Shown piece by piece: positions 30,410-38,205 of a DNA stretch of 38,205 bases (within the stretch, counting starts at the first letter, position 1; every line of letters begins with the position of its first letter). The notes beneath the pieces were generated by a model. That model was not told where the DNA came from. It saw only the letters and a list, made by a program, of their open reading frames with translations, and made no database searches. Made by a program: the position numbers and the translations under genes. The stretch covers positions 1 to 38,205 of the forward strand of contig CASFCQ010000031.1 of assembly GCA_949293185.1 (NCBI GenBank), given 5' to 3'. This stretch comes from an uncultured bacterium. Lineage in GTDB: Bacteria; Cyanobacteriota; Vampirovibrionia; Gastranaerophilales; Gastranaerophilaceae.

Positions 30410-31354
30410 CTATTTTCTTGTAAAAGTCGATACCTCAACCGTGCAGGGCGGGAAGTCTCTGCGTGTATCATATTCACTAAGCTTATTACATCTTAAACCG
30501 TTCTCACCATCACCGGCAATACTGGCGTCGTAACCGGTAGGTTTTTTATAGTCGGAATAAGTACTTTTGAAAGAACTCTTTGTTGTCACACTCATTTTAT
30601 CAAGTTCCCATTCCTGATCACTAAAAGCAATATGTTGGGCTTCGCCAAATGTCATAGGAATAGAATAATCCTTGTCTAAATCAGGATTACCGGAAACTAC
30701 TCTTGCTGTCATATATGTTGAATCATCCACAGGCAACCCCTGCGGAACAACTACGCCATTATCCTTGCTAATGATAAACGGAATAACATCAGGTTTCTTT
30801 TTGCCTGCAATATATTTAGTTCTGTTAGGCAGCCTGTCGCCGTTAATATCTACCCAAAGATAAAAATACTGAAAATCATTATAATTCAAAATATAATATT
30901 TCATCCCGTCTGTTGTTACAAAAGACGGCTCTACTTCTATCTCTTTATCAGTAGTAAAATTGCTCATGTCAGAAATCTTGCAGCTGCTATTCGTAACATT
31001 TATATAACCTTTGTCATCGGCTGTTAAAGCTGAACAAAGCTGTTCCGGTGTCGGGTTAGTTCCGTCACAACTAGCCCCGCAGTCTATGTTTGGAAAGCGT
31101 TTTTTCTCACTGTCTTCAGCCCCTGATTTACCGCTTTCCTGTGCTTCAAGATTTTTTTCTTCATTATAATTATCAACATCCTCTTGAATGTTGTATGTGG
31201 CAGTGTTAAGAGTTTTATATGCTTTTGCATACAAATTAGCATAGGTTTTTTCGTCGGCGTTTCTGAATATTTTTAACGACAAAATAACAAGAAGAGCCGT
31301 TATTGCCATAACTATAAGAGTTTCAAATACTGTAAAAGCAAGTTTTTTTTGCAT
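30410..31354 (-). CDS. Prepilin-like protein with a D-x-N-G motif, 314 aa
   Basis: The leader is MQKKLA followed by FTVFETLIVMAITALLVIL, a class III prepilin signal with Glu at +5 and an Ala at -1, cut by a PilD-type peptidase. After the membrane helix is a soluble head with Cys clusters. The segment WVDINGDRLPNRTKYIAGKKKPDVIPF (about residues 165-190) has the D-x-N-G-x-x-x-P-N pattern seen in several major pseudopilins. Unlike its three upstream neighbours it has no polyglycine body. AAAGGT lies ahead of the ATG, 30 nt after the previous stop. It is the last gene of the prepilin run and may supply the ordinary subunit or a minor one. Confidence 0.85.
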   Translation of the reverse strand: MQKKLAFTVFETLIVMAITALLVILSLKIFRNADEKTYANLYAKAYKTLNTATYNIQEDVDNYNEEKNLEAQESGKSGAEDSEKKRFPNIDCGASCDGTNPTPEQLCSALTADDKGYINVTNSSCKISDMSNFTTDKEIEVEPSFVTTDGMKYYILNYNDFQYFYLWVDINGDRLPNRTKYIAGKKKPDVIPFIISKDNGVVVPQGLPVDDSTYMTARVVSGNPDLDKDYSIPMTFGEAQHIAFSDQEWELDKMSVTTKSSFKSTYSDYKKPTGYDASIAGDGENGLRCNKLSEYDTRRDFPPCTVEVSTFTRK

Positions 31355-31384
31355 TTTTATATATTACCTTTCATCTCGAACAAA

Positions 31385-32818
31385 TTAGTTCCATTCAACA
31401 CGGACATATCCCGGCATGCCTCTGCCGCCTTTGCCCCAGCGATCTTTACTTGAGCCGGTTGCACCGCTTCTTGGCAGCGAACTGCCACCACCGCCGCCGG
31501 CGCCGTATTCATCTTCGGATGCTGCAACTATGCCTCTTTTTTCTATATCAACAGAATCATTGTTGCCCATATCATTTTGACCGTTAAGATTTCCCATAGC
31601 TGTTCCGGCGACTGGGAGTACACCGCCATAAGGAGACATTGCACCTTCTTTACCTCTGGCTGCTGCTGTCTTAGAAGTAGAAGATTCTGCTCTTGCTTTA
31701 CCGCCTTCACCGCCTTTAGCTATAGCATAATAACCGAACGAAGAGTTTTCACCCTGCTCACCGTTAGTATCCTCTGTTACTGCACCAGCACCGCCTTGAC
31801 CAACATATACTTTTACTTCATCAGTAATTTTTTCTAATGTAGTATAAGCTGTAGTGCCTCTTTTTCCGCCGCCTCCGGCGTGGTGACTGTTAGAAACAAG
31901 CATTGCTACACCCGGAAAACCCTGTCCACCTGCAGCACTTTTTATACCAGCACCGCCAAAACCAAAAGCCACTGCGGATTTGTCAGTGGAATTGATAAAA
32001 TCAGACAAATCAGCGTTATTATAATCTATTTTTCCGCCTTTTTCACCGGAAGCAGCAGTCTGTGCAGAAGTATGACCTGGAGCAGCACCCGGTTGTCCTA
32101 CAGTTGTACCACCGCCTTTACCGCCTTCTGCTTCAATTGTATTATTGTTGCTATATACATATAATTTACTTGGGTGACCATCGCCGCCTTTGCAGGCATC
32201 ATTCCAACTTGCATTCGGATCTCCGGAACATACCTCACTGGAACCGGTTTCACTTTCCGGGTCACCGGCAGCACCGCCTTTATCACCGCCCATACCGGCT
32301 TCAAGAACTATATAATCATTTTTATTTAAATACTGCGTTACTATCTGTATACCGCCGGCACCACCGCCTTTTGCTCCATAATTACCTTGATAAGCACTGC
32401 CGCCGCCGCCGCCGCCGACTAACAATATAAGATAATCACCGGAAGCTGTAGCCTGATAGCCCTGGGGTCGCCCGTAAGAAGCAACATCCATAGAAAATGC
32501 AGTACCGGAAGCACCGCCGCCACCGCCGCCAATAGTAACAACTGTGTATGATTTAGCATTCTGTTGAGGTTTAAAAACACAATACTCACCGCCGCCGTCT
32601 ACTTGTGTTTTAGAGGCTTGACCATCAATGGTAAGTTTACTTTCATGTTTACCTTCTGCTGTAAGGTAACATTCCCACACACCGTGAGGGGCTTTATTCT
32701 TAACGTTTTTTCTAGTAATCATCGGGGCTGATGCAATAATCAAAAGCATGATAACAAACATAGTGACCAGTACTTCTGTTAAAGAAAACGCATTTAAGAT
32801 TTTTGTGTTTTTAATCAT
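31385..32818 (-). CDS. Glycine-rich minor prepilin-like protein, 477 aa
   Basis: Leader MIKNTKILNA, then FSLTEVLVTMFVIMLLIIAS (Glu +5, Ala -1), then the shared neck module with WECYLTAEGKH and GEYCVFKPQQ (Cys50 and Cys80) and the strand SYTVVTIGGGGGGASG. A long polyglycine-rich body follows, with repeated GGxGG patches, for example GGGGGGSAYQ and GAGGGGGSSLPRSG. The end is GRGMPGYVRVEWN, the common final strand. The homologous C-terminal unit VKVYVGQGG ... SSFGYYAIAKGGEGGKARA aligns with the 593 aa paralog. AAGGAC lies before the ATG. Function inferred as a surface adhesin-like pilin subunit. Confidence 0.85.
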   Translation of the reverse strand: MIKNTKILNAFSLTEVLVTMFVIMLLIIASAPMITRKNVKNKAPHGVWECYLTAEGKHESKLTIDGQASKTQVDGGGEYCVFKPQQNAKSYTVVTIGGGGGGASGTAFSMDVASYGRPQGYQATASGDYLILLVGGGGGGSAYQGNYGAKGGGAGGIQIVTQYLNKNDYIVLEAGMGGDKGGAAGDPESETGSSEVCSGDPNASWNDACKGGDGHPSKLYVYSNNNTIEAEGGKGGGTTVGQPGAAPGHTSAQTAASGEKGGKIDYNNADLSDFINSTDKSAVAFGFGGAGIKSAAGGQGFPGVAMLVSNSHHAGGGGKRGTTAYTTLEKITDEVKVYVGQGGAGAVTEDTNGEQGENSSFGYYAIAKGGEGGKARAESSTSKTAAARGKEGAMSPYGGVLPVAGTAMGNLNGQNDMGNNDSVDIEKRGIVAASEDEYGAGGGGGSSLPRSGATGSSKDRWGKGGRGMPGYVRVEWN

Positions 32819-32846
32819 TCTTTGTCCTTTATTTTTTATTCTTGTC

Positions 32847-32901
32847 CGTCATGCTGAGGCGGTTTGTTGGTCTTAGATTCTTCGCTTCGCTCAGAATGAC
32901 G
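32847..32901. repeat. Short inverted-repeat element A, between prepilin genes
   Basis: CGTCATGCTGAG (32847-32858) is inverted as CTCAGAATGACG (32890-32901) with one mismatch, spanning 55 bp. The inner part AGATTCTTCGCTTCGCTC is a word very common between genes in many bacteria. A diverged copy of the inner word occurs at about 37939-37958. Confidence 0.7.
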
Positions 32902-32910
32902 TCTTGTTTT

Positions 32911-32951
32911 CTGCTCCCTCTCCAATGGGAGAGGGCTGGGGTGAGGGTTGA
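32911..32951. repeat. CCCTCTCC palindrome motif
   Basis: CCCTCTCC (32916-32923) pairs with GGAGAGGG (32928-32935) across a 4-nt loop, followed by CTGGGGTGAGGG. This is a widespread intergenic motif of unknown role in bacterial genomes. Confidence 0.6.
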
Positions 32952-33013
32952 CCTCTTACCCTGCCATACTGAATTTATTTCATTTATACCAGCCTTGTTG
33001 GCTTTTCTTTCAC

Positions 33014-33162
33014 CGTCATACTGAGGCGTTAGCCGAAGTATCTGTTGACTTAAATATCTATACGCCACGGAGATACTTTGTATCTCACTTAGGCTGACTC
33101 CATTCAAAACTTGACATTTAGTCAACTTTTGCACGGAGTCCTTGCTTTCGCTCAGAATGACG
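33014..33162. repeat. Longer inverted-repeat element B, between prepilin genes
   Basis: CGTCATACTGAG (33014-33025) is inverted as CTCAGAATGACG (33151-33162), so the ends match element A, with 149 bp in total. Inside are nested inverted repeats: GTTGACT/AGTCAAC (about 33044-33125) and GAGATAC-TTT-GTATCTC (33070-33086). The layout looks like a small non-autonomous element or a palindromic intergenic repeat. Confidence 0.65.
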
Positions 33163-33190
33163 ATTATTATTTATTCAATTGTCAAAGTCA

Positions 33191-35800
33191 TTACCATTTG
33201 ATAATAACTACACCGGGTGTACCGGCAGCACCGCCGCCTGCCGTACTAGTACCACCGGCACCGCCGCCGCCGCCGGCGCCATATGTCATATCAAGCGGAT
33301 GTCCGCCTATAGTATTAAAGGAATACGCAGCACCATTAAGTATTGTACCAGACTGTCCCCATACGCTTGTAATTGCAGTTTTACCGGCGTAGTTGGTATT
33401 AGCACCATCTCCGGAATAACCGCCATATGGTATAATCTTGGCTCTGTTGGCTTCATTTTCAACAGGAGAAGGTGCACCGTCACCGCCTTTAACAACCTCA
33501 GCTGTTGCCATTGCTGTCAGCTTTTTAGCCTGTCCTGCAATACCACCTTGCAATACAAACATATCTTTGTAAGAATTTGACTCAGTATCAAATTCCTGAA
33601 TAATTGTTGGATAGCCAGGATGACCGTCAGTTTGTATAATTGACGGAGCACCGGGAGCACCAATAGTAATCTTCAGTTTTGCAAGTTTTTTGACCATAGT
33701 GCTGACATATTGACCAGCCTGTCCTCCTGTACCGCCGTAAGCGTCTGATCTGACTATGGCTATATATCCTTCTGTACCTTCATTACCGATGAAGTTTGCA
33801 AAAGCCTCGCCTGTTTGGTCATTAAAAGCGATATATGTACGTGATGTTTCACCTGCACCATAACCGCCTGATCCGGCTTGTCCCATATAACGCTGTCTGC
33901 CGCCTTCCAGATAATATTGATCTTCTTCGTCAGCTTCCGGCGTGTATGGTTTTATTTCCGGATTCAGATACGGAAAATCAATATCAGCGATGGTGTTGCC
34001 AAAAAGAGGAGCAGGATTTTTTCTATCGCCATCCGGAAGTTTAGGATTTTCACCTTCCAGTACAGCAGAACTGTATATACATACATTTATACCTAATTTT
34101 TTGTGAGTAGCGTCAAAATATTTAGGTCGTACTCTTTGGACACAGTTTCTCAATCCGTAAGATGATATACCTGTATGTTTAGAACAACTACATTTATAAT
34201 GTTGGACAGTATCTGCACAATAAGAACAATCATAACTAGAACCAGGTATTGTATTACCATCTTCATCAGTAGTATCAGGATGTTTACAAGTTTTGGAGAC
34301 CCAATCTACACAATAAGTCGGAGCACTACAAGTGGAATGAGGAGTATTTGTACAAAAACTCGGACTTGTTGTTACTGTACCATCCTTACCTGCTGCAGCA
34401 GTTGGTTCATCTAAAAATCCAGAACTTTCAATCGGATATACTTCGCATTCATAAACAGGAATATTTTTATACGCGGGAATTTCTTTCAAAAATCTGGAAG
34501 CACCACCTTCACCGCCTTCTGCAGTATATTTTCTACCGCCAAGCTGAAGTATGGTTTCTTCGCCTTTTGTACCTACATCGCCATCACTACTCATACGGGT
34601 AGTAAGAGTCAACACTCCGCTTGAATTTGGCAAAAATGCGCTTACGGTACGTTTATTACCTGTTTGTTTCCCATATCCGGGATTTCCAACCATTGCATAG
34701 ATACTTTCACCAGCCATGAGTTCTTCACTATCAATAGCGCTTTCTGCCTGTCCCTGATGACCGCCTTGACCGGGCAGATTCCAGCATTTTATACTTGGTT
34801 TGCTTGCATCTTTGTCAGTAAGATAAAGACCTTTGTCACCGTTAATTTCTTTTGACATTGGCCAATCATTTTCAGCAAAGCACATTACTCTGTCTTTTAA
34901 TTGTTGTTCATCTAAACCGATTTCATCATAAGCTAAATATTTATACTTAAAATCATAAACAGAAATGTTGCCAGCCCATTCACCATTTTCATTTGTATAT
35001 CGTGTATCAGGTTTGTTCTGTCCATAGTTATATTCATCTGTATATTTTTGATCATTTTGAAATAACAGATTATATTTAAATCCGGGTAACATATGGTCTA
35101 CGTAACCGTACTGATAATATTTTGGATGGTTCGGATCTTCGCTTTTGCTGTTTTCGGAGCTGCGACAATCTACATCATAGCCTATTGAAGAAGTTTTTGG
35201 ACACCACGAGACCGGTGAAGCTTTGTCATGTTGCTGGGTCGACTCATTCCAGGACCAGTCATTTCCTTGCCCGTACATACCATGATGTTTTTCTGATTGT
35301 GTTTCAAATACAGAATCTTGTTCAAGATCAAGGTCATTAGTAATCTGATCTTTAGCTTCGCCGCAAGCCATACCGCCGCCGCCGCCGCCGCCGCCGGCAA
35401 TAATTACATTATATGTACTATCCACATCTACAGTACCTGCATATGTAGGACCATCAACTCTGGAATCATATATACTGCTCACATTTCCCATTGTACCGCC
35501 GGCACCGCCGCCGCCGCCGCCAACTGCTTTAATAGTAAAGTTTTTTGCCGCAGCCGGAGGAGAAAAAACACAATATTCACCATTTCCTTGAGCAAGTTCA
35601 AATTCTGTTACCTTGCCACGGTATGTAGTTTTTACAACATGTTTACCGTCTTTATTCAAAGTACATGTCCACTCACCGTGTTCGCCCACATCTTTATGTT
35701 TTCTTGTAATTACAGGCACAAGTGCTGCAGCCAAAAGTGCAGCAATTAAAAGCAAGATAAGAGCTTCTGCCAGTGTGAATGCTTGTGTTTTCTTTTTCAT
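33191..35800 (-). CDS. Large glycine-rich prepilin-like protein with Cys-rich insert, 869 aa
   Basis: Leader MKKKTQA, then FTLAEALILLLIAALLAAAL (Glu +5, Ala -1), then the neck module EWTCTLNKDGKH and GEYCVFSPP (Cys46, Cys77). The strand FTIKAVGGGGGGAGG starts the polyglycine body, with a second unit STYNVIIAGGGGGGGG near residues 128-142. In the middle there is a Cys-dense insert of about 130 residues (near residues 455-580) with 11 cysteines, between glycine patches. The C-terminus is GTPGVVIIKW. It is the largest of the run and may be the main adhesive tip. GGAG lies upstream of the ATG. Confidence 0.87.
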   Translation of the reverse strand: MKKKTQAFTLAEALILLLIAALLAAALVPVITRKHKDVGEHGEWTCTLNKDGKHVVKTTYRGKVTEFELAQGNGEYCVFSPPAAAKNFTIKAVGGGGGGAGGTMGNVSSIYDSRVDGPTYAGTVDVDSTYNVIIAGGGGGGGGMACGEAKDQITNDLDLEQDSVFETQSEKHHGMYGQGNDWSWNESTQQHDKASPVSWCPKTSSIGYDVDCRSSENSKSEDPNHPKYYQYGYVDHMLPGFKYNLLFQNDQKYTDEYNYGQNKPDTRYTNENGEWAGNISVYDFKYKYLAYDEIGLDEQQLKDRVMCFAENDWPMSKEINGDKGLYLTDKDASKPSIKCWNLPGQGGHQGQAESAIDSEELMAGESIYAMVGNPGYGKQTGNKRTVSAFLPNSSGVLTLTTRMSSDGDVGTKGEETILQLGGRKYTAEGGEGGASRFLKEIPAYKNIPVYECEVYPIESSGFLDEPTAAAGKDGTVTTSPSFCTNTPHSTCSAPTYCVDWVSKTCKHPDTTDEDGNTIPGSSYDCSYCADTVQHYKCSCSKHTGISSYGLRNCVQRVRPKYFDATHKKLGINVCIYSSAVLEGENPKLPDGDRKNPAPLFGNTIADIDFPYLNPEIKPYTPEADEEDQYYLEGGRQRYMGQAGSGGYGAGETSRTYIAFNDQTGEAFANFIGNEGTEGYIAIVRSDAYGGTGGQAGQYVSTMVKKLAKLKITIGAPGAPSIIQTDGHPGYPTIIQEFDTESNSYKDMFVLQGGIAGQAKKLTAMATAEVVKGGDGAPSPVENEANRAKIIPYGGYSGDGANTNYAGKTAITSVWGQSGTILNGAAYSFNTIGGHPLDMTYGAGGGGGAGGTSTAGGGAAGTPGVVIIKW
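35373..35396. repeat. (CCG)8 microsatellite in a polyglycine-coding run
   Basis: Eight tandem CCG (GGC Gly codons on the coding strand) encode part of an 8-residue glycine stretch. Repeats of this kind also occur at 37361-37378 (six units) in the first gene and at about 35505-35519. Slippage would change the glycine count in steps of one residue without shifting the frame. Confidence 0.75.
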
Positions 35801-35848
35801 ATATGATTTTGCTCCAGTTATTCTAAGTTTTATTTTTATTTATATAAT

Positions 35849-35882
35849 CGTCAATTCCCTTTATAAATAAAGGGAATTGACG
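35849..35882. other. Perfect 34-bp palindrome between the first two prepilin genes
   Basis: CGTCAATTCCCTTT (35849-35862) is perfectly inverted as AAAGGGAATTGACG (35869-35882) around a 6-nt loop. In the direction of transcription (minus) no T-run follows, so it is not a clear intrinsic terminator. It could set the stoichiometry of the two neighbouring mRNAs through processing or attenuation, or be a protein-binding site. Confidence 0.75.
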
Positions 35883-35895
35883 AAATATTGTTTTA

Positions 35896-37677
35896 TTACC
35901 AGGTTACGATTACAATACCCGAGGCACCTTTACCGCCTTTACCCCATTTAGGAGTACCGGTAAAATCTTTTGAACCTTGAGCACCGCCGCCTGCACCGCT
36001 GCTGCCGGGTGAGGTAATATCACTGTTTGTACAACTGCCGACACCTTTACCGTCAAAATTGCCGTTGCTGCCACAGCTGCCATCGTAATTTAAGCCGCCT
36101 AAAATTTCTGTAATCAAGTTAGAACCTGACGGATATTGGACTTTATCCAATAAATCTTTAGTCATCGGACCAACTATGCCGTCTTTGCCGACTGCCTGCA
36201 GGTCATTTTTTTCATTTTCAGCCGGGTTAGTTGCACGTGCTCTTCCGCCTGCACCGCCATCAGCGATAATTCTGTTACCGAATCTTGAGAACATGCCGTC
36301 TTCACCTTCGGCACCGCTTTCTTGACCGCCTTTACCGCCTTTGCCCGGATATACTTTAACAAATTCTTCACCCTCAGCAAGAGGAGATTTTGTATAAGAG
36401 TAGAAAGAGATTGACCCCGGAGTACCTGCACCACCACCAAATACAGGGAGTTCCTTTACTTGAACCATACCGGCAGAACCGTCTTTTCCGCTGTGGCGTT
36501 TACCACCGCCTTCACCGCCTTTGCCAAATGAAGATAACTCCATACCACCTGCCATGGTGTTCAGGTCTTTACAGCTGATATTGCTGCCGAAGTCACATAT
36601 TTTACCGCCTGTCTGACCGCTATGATCTGTAATGCCTTGATAAACAACAGAATCACCATACTTAGCATCACCATTAGCCTGTGTTTCATACAAATCTGTA
36701 CCGAATTTAGTTTTAGGACCGGCAAACGGTGTTGTATTACTACAGTTGTTGTTCGCATTTTCTTTACCACAGCCGCCGGCAGTTCTGCATTTTGGCCAGA
36801 AGCCTGCTTTACGTCTGTGTTCGCCGCCGCCGCCGCCTCCGGCAGTAACTACTATATCATCACCATAAAAATATGATCCGGCACCATTACCACCGCCATC
36901 TTTACGATCGTTTGATTTACCTGACTCCAAAAGATCTCCAACCATTGCAGCAGTGAAACCACCGTAAAGAATCCCTGCACCAAGTGTAGTAAGAGTTACG
37001 GCAAATCCCGCAATTGTAAGACCACCGGTAAGAACAGACACCGCAGCAAACGCTGCCCAGCCTATAGGTTTCAAAATTTGACCAAAAGTTTCACCAAATT
37101 TCTTTCTGGCTCCGCCGTTACCCGAGAAACCAACCTGAATTTTATATGCTTTTGTCTTTTTTAAGTTTGCACGTTGTACAACAAGACCACCGCTGCGCCC
37201 GCCGTAGCCTTCGCATAAACCGGCGCCGCCTCCGCCGCCGCCTCCGCCGCCGATAGCAATGATTTGATATATACCATCACTGGCAGGAACAAAGGTTTGT
37301 TCAAATTGGTCTGTATAGAAGAAGTTTTTTACCTGTCCTTCTCCGGCTTCACCAGCAGCACCGCCGCCGCCGCCGCCGACTACAGTTACATTAAATCTTG
37401 TTACGCCTTCCGGCGGTTCAAAGATAGCATATTCTTCACCGCCTTCATGACCTATAAGACTGGAATCTTCTGTACCGTCTTTATACACATGAAGTTGGTC
37501 ATTCTGGTCATAGAATGCCATCCAGGTGTTTTTATCTTTTGCTGCCGCTCTGTATTCTTTTGATTTTTTGATTACAGGGACACTTGCAAGAGTCATTAGA
37601 GCAATGACTATCATGGTTATCAGCACTTCTGCCAGAGTAAAACCAAGGAATTTTTCAATTTTGTCTTTGGATATCAT
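35896..37677 (-). CDS. Glycine-rich prepilin-like protein, first of the run, 593 aa
   Basis: Leader MISKDKIEKFLG, then FTLAEVLITMIVIALMTLAS (Gly -1, Glu +5), the best prepilin site of the run. The neck module TWMAFYDQNDQ and EEYAIFEPPEG lacks the cysteine pair of its paralogs. Two glycine strands follow, FNVTVVGGGGGGAAG and YQIIAIGGGGGGGGG. A hydrophobic segment (about residues 203-250) then interrupts the body. The body resumes with GG-rich patches, the unit VKVYPGKGG ... SRFGNRIIADGGAGGRARA, and ends KGASGIVIVTW. GGAG lies 6 nt before the ATG at 37677. It probably leads the operon. Confidence 0.87.
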   Translation of the reverse strand: MISKDKIEKFLGFTLAEVLITMIVIALMTLASVPVIKKSKEYRAAAKDKNTWMAFYDQNDQLHVYKDGTEDSSLIGHEGGEEYAIFEPPEGVTRFNVTVVGGGGGGAAGEAGEGQVKNFFYTDQFEQTFVPASDGIYQIIAIGGGGGGGGGAGLCEGYGGRSGGLVVQRANLKKTKAYKIQVGFSGNGGARKKFGETFGQILKPIGWAAFAAVSVLTGGLTIAGFAVTLTTLGAGILYGGFTAAMVGDLLESGKSNDRKDGGGNGAGSYFYGDDIVVTAGGGGGGEHRRKAGFWPKCRTAGGCGKENANNNCSNTTPFAGPKTKFGTDLYETQANGDAKYGDSVVYQGITDHSGQTGGKICDFGSNISCKDLNTMAGGMELSSFGKGGEGGGKRHSGKDGSAGMVQVKELPVFGGGAGTPGSISFYSYTKSPLAEGEEFVKVYPGKGGKGGQESGAEGEDGMFSRFGNRIIADGGAGGRARATNPAENEKNDLQAVGKDGIVGPMTKDLLDKVQYPSGSNLITEILGGLNYDGSCGSNGNFDGKGVGSCTNSDITSPGSSGAGGGAQGSKDFTGTPKWGKGGKGASGIVIVTW

Positions 37678-38205
37678 GCAATGCTCCTCATTTTAGCTAA
37701 AAAACATTATGATTATCGGCATTTTATAAAAATACTTTAATTTTTTTCGGGTAATGTGTCAATTTCGTTACAAAAAAATCAGTATAATGTATGAGATGCC
37801 ATATATTATATAAATACCCATTTTTGTGATTTTATAACATGATTGTTAAGTTTAGTTAATTTGAATTTTTAAATTATTGACAAAATCAGCTTGCAGCAAG
37901 TGTTATGACGGACAAGAAAATAACTTGTTCGTTTAAGAGATTCTTCGCTTTCCTTAGAATTGTATATGTTACGTAATTCAGTGACAGAAATAATTCTTAC
38001 TTAACATAAGAAACTGCGTCAGCAGTGTAAGCGGTTATACAAATAACGGCATATTCACAAAAAATCCGACCTTTGTGAAGTGAATTACAGAAAGTTGCAC
38101 AAACAACAACAAGCGAGGTTTGTTTGAGGGCTATGTAATTATAACAATCATTTTAATATATCAAAAGAAAGCAATTTATATAGCCCGAGTTGCCGAGCAC
38201 AGGTT
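37678..38205. other. Non-coding region upstream of the prepilin operon, with repeat fragments
   Basis: No gene is supported in these 528 bp. The minus strand carries the probable promoter: TTGACA (complement of 37762-37757) and TAAAGT (37739-37734) 17 nt apart. The 15-bp motif TTTGTAACGAAATTG (37760-37774) is shared with the LEA-like gene. Further out are a diverged copy of the TTCTTCGCTT repeat (about 37939-37958), the word TGTATATGTTACGTAATT (37961-37978), and a 22-bp ACTGCGTCAGCAGTGTAAGCGG (38011-38032) matching 24145-24166. Near the end GGGCTAT (about 38128) is inverted as ATAGCCC (38179-38185). Confidence 0.5.
37734..37762 (-). promoter_or_regulatory. Probable promoter of the prepilin operon
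   Basis: On the minus strand TTGACA (37762-37757) is followed after 17 nt by TAAAGT (37739-37734). The -35 is perfect and the -10 is weak. It gives a leader of about 50 nt before the ATG at 37677. Confidence 0.45.

Follow-up and report, generated by a model that had tools for sequence, protein, structure and literature searches.

A gene cluster for prepilins with nested glycine-rich domains in an uncultured Gastranaerophilales bacterium: candidate adhesins of a type IV filament

Described systems and the four-gene cluster

Modular pilins that carry adhesive modules at the filament tip are an established mechanism, according to two reports (PMC8179133, PMC9934059), the first of which counts hundreds of modular pilin architectures. 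PilB and PilC of Streptococcus sanguinis combine a class III pilin part with a large C-terminal binding module (vWA and lectin modules), and several such minor pilins act together, it is thought at the tip (PMC8179133, PMC9934059). CofB of E. coli type IVb pili is a large multi-domain pilin for which a trimer at the tip has been proposed (PMC8179133), and the sets around GspK (GspH-I-J-K) and at the tips of T4aP consist of about four co-encoded minor pilins, some of them large, that are thought to cap the filament (PMC9934059). It has also been reported that gp24 of cyanophage Pam3 is a receptor-binding fibre in which a TNF-like domain continues as a glycine lattice of four layers; the stems are conserved, the distal end, thought to be the receptor-binding part, is variable, and this protein was likened to gp38 of phage S16 and to ALK (PMC9608196).

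The cluster described here has features of each of these systems. Its genes run on the minus strand at one end of a contig of 38,205 bases, the whole of which was analysed and is referred to as the window, in a genome of 2.2 Mb (99% complete). The host is Candidatus Gastranaerophilales, a record name that close relatives of the cluster carry among the matches listed in a contig scan. As in S. sanguinis PilB and PilC, several proteins join a class III pilin part to a large C-terminal module; the cluster differs in its nested Gly_rich_2 heads, in its diderm gut host, in encoding three heads of one family side by side, and in that adhesion is putative here. The predicted inner heads resemble Pam3 gp24 (7ypx) and S16 gp38 in combining a TNF-like part with stacked glycine motifs and in having stems that are conserved and ends that vary, whereas the phage proteins are fibre trimers with their own chaperone and without a pilin helix. 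ALK/LTK, which are animal receptors, share the TNF-like fold and a glycine-rich part as a resemblance of fold only. CofB has another fold, and the cluster genes, unlike those of GspH-I-J-K sets, are not assignable to H, I, J or K by sequence. Modular pilins and the TNF-like/glycine fold are thus already known, while the fusion with nested glycine heads and the three-gene cassette were not found described: the literature searched contained no report of glycine-rich or polyglycine pilins, of a nested-head fusion or of such a cassette, and no homolog with another described role. An earlier sequence-only reading had taken the three-paralog fusion operon for a candidate new system.

Four co-directional genes encode class III prepilins of 593, 869, 477 and 314 aa; all four prepilin genes that had been proposed from the sequence coincide exactly with open reading frames. 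The features, all on the minus strand, are as follows.

37734 to 37762 (-): promoter-like TTGACA-17-TAAAGT upstream of gene 1, a consensus match only, which does not stand out clearly from the chance matches of the scan
35896 to 37677 (-): gene 1, modular prepilin of 593 aa, whose leader, pilin helix and neck take up about the first 100 residues, followed by an outer Gly_rich_2 domain split around an inner Gly_rich_2 domain and by the final strand GIVIVTW
36454 to 37323 (-): predicted inner glycine-lattice head of gene 1, residues 119-408, matching the Pam3 fibre, the Bxb1 tail tip and the ALK/LTK glycine-rich folds
36919 to 37053 (-): hydrophobic, small-residue-rich stretch of gene 1, residues about 209-253, inside the inner head, where model confidence is low
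35848 to 35883 (-): RNA hairpin between genes 1 and 2, with a stem of 16 bp (z -5.49)
33191 to 35800 (-): gene 2, modular prepilin of 869 aa, with pilin part, neck and an outer Gly_rich_2 domain holding a cysteine-rich insert of 562 residues
33779 to 35464 (-): insert of gene 2, residues 113-674, without a family match in the profile search
32819 to 33190 (-): gap of 372 bp between genes 2 and 3, with a dispersed repeat
31385 to 32818 (-): gene 3, modular prepilin of 477 aa (open reading frame, PF21722 match, AlphaFold2 model)
31892 to 32479 (-): predicted inner glycine-lattice head of gene 3, residues 114-309 (structure match to 7ypx; PF21722 positions 18-221 of 226)
30410 to 31354 (-): gene 4, prepilin of 314 aa without a glycine domain (open reading frame, prepilin motif)

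The four genes are likely to form one operon, and only likely because a strong hairpin separates genes 1 and 2 and the gap between genes 2 and 3 bears a repeat and measures 372 bp, compared with 18-28 bp in two relatives. A hairpin is found in this gap in all seven of the species compared (the window and L033-L038), with stem sequences that are mostly unrelated, and it may determine how much of gene 1 is expressed relative to genes 2-4. The repeat in the widened gap, GTCATTCTGAGCGAAGCGAAGAATC at 32876-32900, has four further sites in the genome. An open reading frame of 101 aa in the same gap (32829-33134) was rejected as coding and is probably spurious.

All four proteins begin with a short basic leader, followed by G or A, the motif F-x-x-x-E and a hydrophobic helix, as class III prepilins do. 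The motifs of genes 1 to 4 are G/FTLAE, A/FTLAE, A/FSLTE and A/FTVFE (the slash precedes position +1), so that the F-x-L-x-E proposed for the prepilins fits genes 1-3, and gene 4 has V at +3. Gene 4 had been called a small prepilin; it is a prepilin, but at 314 aa not a very small one. Models of the N-methylation site match weakly and mostly below their cut-off, TIGR02532 exceeding it for gene 1 alone, and the NCBIfam matches fall on the N-terminal part, below cut-off. The prepilin assignment therefore rests on the motif, its N-terminal place, the predicted helix (residues 15-45 of the modelled gene 1 product and 13-29 of that of gene 3) and conservation. Gene 4 also bears V-D-[VIL]-[NT]-G-x-x-x-P-N, a motif of many small cassette pilins in other genera.

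Nested Gly_rich_2 domains and predicted heads

Genes 1-3 share a neck (W-M-A..EEYAIFEPP, W-T-C..GEYCVFSPP and W-E-C..GEYCVFKPQ, respectively), a glycine-rich body and a C-terminal end of the form G-x-V-x-[VI]-x-W. This end, slightly broader than the G-x-V-x-V-x-W read earlier, is followed by one further residue in gene 3 (GYVRVEWN) and reads GVVIIKW in gene 2. The repeated unit of the bodies (VKVY-x-G / FG / GG-x-GG-x-AR-A), which had been described for all three genes, is clear in genes 1 and 3 and strongly diverged in gene 2 (LKITIG...LQGGIAGQAKK), where glycine makes up only 14% of residues versus 20-21% in the other two. The two cysteines of the neck are both present in 96 of 110 rows of the family alignment and both absent in the seven gene-1 orthologs; this co-occurrence suggests a disulfide.

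The neck and W-ending domain recognised in the sequence are real, but the domain is not a new one, as it corresponds largely to the start (F-x-P-P...GGGGGG) and the end of PF21722 (Gly_rich_2), and it is nested. PF21722 exceeds its cut-off in the intact products of genes 1-3 (E 4.8e-9, 7.1e-6 and 1.6e-11), and the glycine bodies also match phage tail families, weakly. In the intact proteins the PF21722 match is broken, and in all three it becomes one nearly full-length match once the middle is removed: the spliced outer parts cover positions 4-219, 7-225 and 4-225 of 226 (E 4.1e-11, 3.4e-10 and 2.4e-10), scoring 40.8-43.7 bits versus a cut-off of 24.3 over about 215 of the 226 positions, and the score of gene 2 rises from 26.6 to 41.2 bits. 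The removed middle parts of genes 3 and 1 match the same family again, over positions 18-221 and 10-223, at 23.1 and 18.4 bits, which is below the cut-off. Since the flanks join and the middle matches again, the heads of genes 1 and 3 are nested. Each of genes 1-3 therefore encodes a pilin helix and a neck, followed by an outer glycine domain whose first glycine loop carries an insert. In genes 1 and 3 this insert belongs to the PF21722 family as well; the middle of gene 2 has no family match in the profile search. As in modular pilins, a pilin part is thus fused to a module that is not confined to pilus proteins.

Two further observations concern these domains. A 267-aa protein encoded elsewhere in the same genome (contig C1, L081 6013-6816) contains Gly_rich_2, has a membrane anchor in place of the prepilin start and ends in GAVIIQW. 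The hydrophobic stretch of gene 1, about 45 residues, is present in the orthologs, most weakly in L038, and could touch or enter the membrane.

Structures were predicted for genes 1 and 3, two paralogs about 32% identical, by AlphaFold2 with 11-sequence alignments. Mean pLDDT was 71.1 for gene 1 and 69.6 for gene 3; the core lies mostly between 75 and 92, and the gene 3 model shows no order at residues 378-433. Both models contain an ordered core with a glycine-lattice fold, as the suggestion of a polyglycine core had anticipated. The inner domain of gene 1 superimposes on the Pam3 fibre (7ypx) with Z 15.6 and rmsd 2.5 over 166 residues, and that of gene 3 with Z 15.1 and rmsd 2.8 over 162 residues. 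The Bxb1 tail tip (9d93) follows at Z 13.6 and 13.3, and the ALK/LTK glycine-rich region at Z up to 12.1 and 9.5, for genes 1 and 3, respectively, while the next unrelated chains reach 4.0 and 4.6. Foldseek alone gives modest E-values (1.6e-3 for gene 1, 4.7e-5 for gene 3), many of the best predicted viral structure matches are named glycine-rich domain proteins, and a sequence profile search of the PDB returned neither phage fibre nor ALK, and nothing convincing beyond weak pilin N-termini. The inner heads of genes 1 and 3 are thus predicted to have a TNF-like plus glycine-lattice fold, and the TNF-like fold suggests that the modelled heads may trimerise.

Conservation within the family

Six other species of the genus contain orthologs of the cluster with the gene order preserved, at identities of 53-72% for gene 3 (E down to 8.7e-197) and 57-79% for gene 4; together with the PF21722 matches above cut-off, this argues that the cluster is not a chance arrangement. 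Over the seven species, mean pairwise identity of genes 1-3 is 67-75% in the helix and neck, 55-61% in the outer C-terminal part and 43-49% in the inner part. The inner head is the least conserved segment of gene 1 (43%), and the insert of gene 2 has 44% versus 75% for its helix and neck. This gradient fits a fixed base with a fast-changing head; relaxed constraint would also produce it.

A helix-plus-neck model, searched against a sample of the phylum and counted from the match table, found matches at E up to 1e-18 in about 50 genomes of ten genera, all in the family of the window, and outside the family the best match in the sample was 9.9e-8, a value that any ordinary prepilin N-terminus would reach. 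Three adjacent W-ending modular pilins occur in seven other genera (g2, g7, g10, g13, g33, g36 and g45); the middle one is the shortest, in g36 only about 160-170 aa, and often one small prepilin lies behind them and another, divergent one in front. The search in other genomes that had been proposed thus recovered the three-gene set in other genera of the family. For most of these seven genera, the neck tree puts the first genes and the third genes into supported groups of their own; a one-by-one pairing of genes 1-3 of the present genus with the three types of the other genera was set aside, as the tree has too few columns to decide it. Within the genus of the window, some species have the four-gene cluster and others several scattered single genes. 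Every one of the 23 genomes of the genus has relatives of gene 4, and in some further genera such a relative adjoins the cassette.

Two further small pilin types accompany the cassette in other genera (L115-L117, L122, L125, L127 and L132), many of them with the motif V-D-[VIL]-[NT]-G-x-x-x-P-N. In G011, a genome of the genus of the window (L096, L129-L131), a three-gene set groups with genus g45 in the neck tree, and it may have been transferred between genera. A recent capture of the cluster from phage is not supported, as viral contigs contained no relative of gene 3; phage records likewise gave no gene 3 match, in a search that low-complexity filtering weakens.

The filament machine and the role of the heads

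The genome encodes one secretin, followed by PilB- and PilC-type genes, as well as PilT and one prepilin peptidase, the last of which the sequence-only reading had called for. A PilP/GspC-like protein, recognised by eye, precedes the secretin, and no machine gene lies near the four-gene cluster. The scores of the components are mixed: the secretin matches GspD (198.5 bits) better than PilQ (180.2) and the platform protein GspF (313.8) better than PilC (271.1), whereas the extension ATPase matches PilB (525.8) better than GspE (490.3) and PilT reaches 504 bits versus a cut-off of 319. PilM (PF11104) was found in none of 25 genomes of the family searched and is present in 9 of the 15 other genomes searched, these nine being of related families, so the machine is reduced. 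The PilY1-type adhesin PF05567 was found in none of 40 genomes, though the control genomes gave no match either. The PilB protein (L077 11176-13446) has a cyclic di-GMP-binding motif (NF053729, 60.8 bits versus 38), and the filament may thus be controlled by this signal.

We propose, with a probability of roughly 0.68, that the four products are minor pilins belonging to the cell's only type IV filament machine and that they form a tip complex with adhesive heads. The prepilin peptidase, whose gene is present, would cut the leader, and the hydrophobic helix would then dock into the filament; the most likely site is the tip, which gene 4 would share. The short pilin and neck portion of genes 1-3, with a cysteine pair kept in most family members, would bear a TNF-like beta-sandwich. 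The first glycine loop of this sandwich would hold the insert, which in genes 1 and 3 is itself such a domain. According to the predicted structures, this inner domain would be the distal, TNF-like plus stacked-glycine head resembling the tips of phage tail fibres. Through its loops, the head might bind a ligand on a surface, for example a glycan or protein belonging to the host, to gut content or to a neighbouring cell, and three different heads on one tip complex might provide several specificities or a composite site. The heads of genes 1-3 are therefore best described as probable adhesins displayed on a pilus, with surface location, ligand and adhesion all putative.

With its ambiguous secretin (GspD/PilQ) and platform (GspF/PilC) scores and without PilM, the machine might instead serve a type II secretion-like role. 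The proteins would then be pseudopilins, and the heads, instead of being surface adhesins, would serve as a substrate receptor or piston tip, located periplasmically or at the secretin. GspK, a large modular pseudopilin that has been proposed to stand at the pseudopilus tip (PMC8179133), would be a precedent. We consider this role unlikely, although it deserves more weight than the other alternatives, in view of the PilT score far above cut-off and the preference of the extension ATPase for PilB; moreover, three large paralogous heads that vary distally suit diversity of ligands better than a conserved secretion task. PilT thus favours a type IV pilus, and one that retracts, over type II secretion, a preference that the missing PilM weakens.

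The heads might also be structural or protective, forming a stiff glycine-lattice spacer or cap required for pilus assembly, without a specific ligand, which would agree with a conserved base and varying distal parts and with the view that tip pilins start assembly in other systems (PMC9934059). This seems improbable to us, as the inner domains are nested upon the outer ones and vary most where phage heads bind their receptors, and heads of very different size are found in the cassettes of other genera. Least probable of all is that the fold match is an artefact in which AlphaFold drew glycine-rich, low-complexity chains into a remembered glycine lattice. The modest confidence, shallow alignments and biased composition, as well as the result of the PDB profile search, would point in that direction; against it, the two paralogs agree on domain limits and ranked matches, the non-glycine TNF-like strands included, and the whole-length PF21722 matches are independent of the models and give domain limits that agree with theirs.

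A more specific arrangement can be envisaged, which we offer as speculative and on balance doubtful: the modular pilins would form a heterotrimer via their TNF-like domains, in which three different phage-fibre-like heads make up a 'lattice on lattice' torch and gene 4 forms the base of the torch.

Gastranaerophilales live in the gut, are related to cyanobacteria and are for the most part uncultured; the literature searched contained no described adhesin for them. The cluster is a concrete candidate, a conserved cassette of putative pilus-tip adhesins, in which the receptor-binding fold of phage fibres and of the animal receptors ALK/LTK is predicted to be placed, nested, on a pilus. The heterotrimer, if true, would mean that this gut family keeps, as a cassette, a pilus tip that follows the design of the tip of a phage tail fibre, with diversified distal heads.
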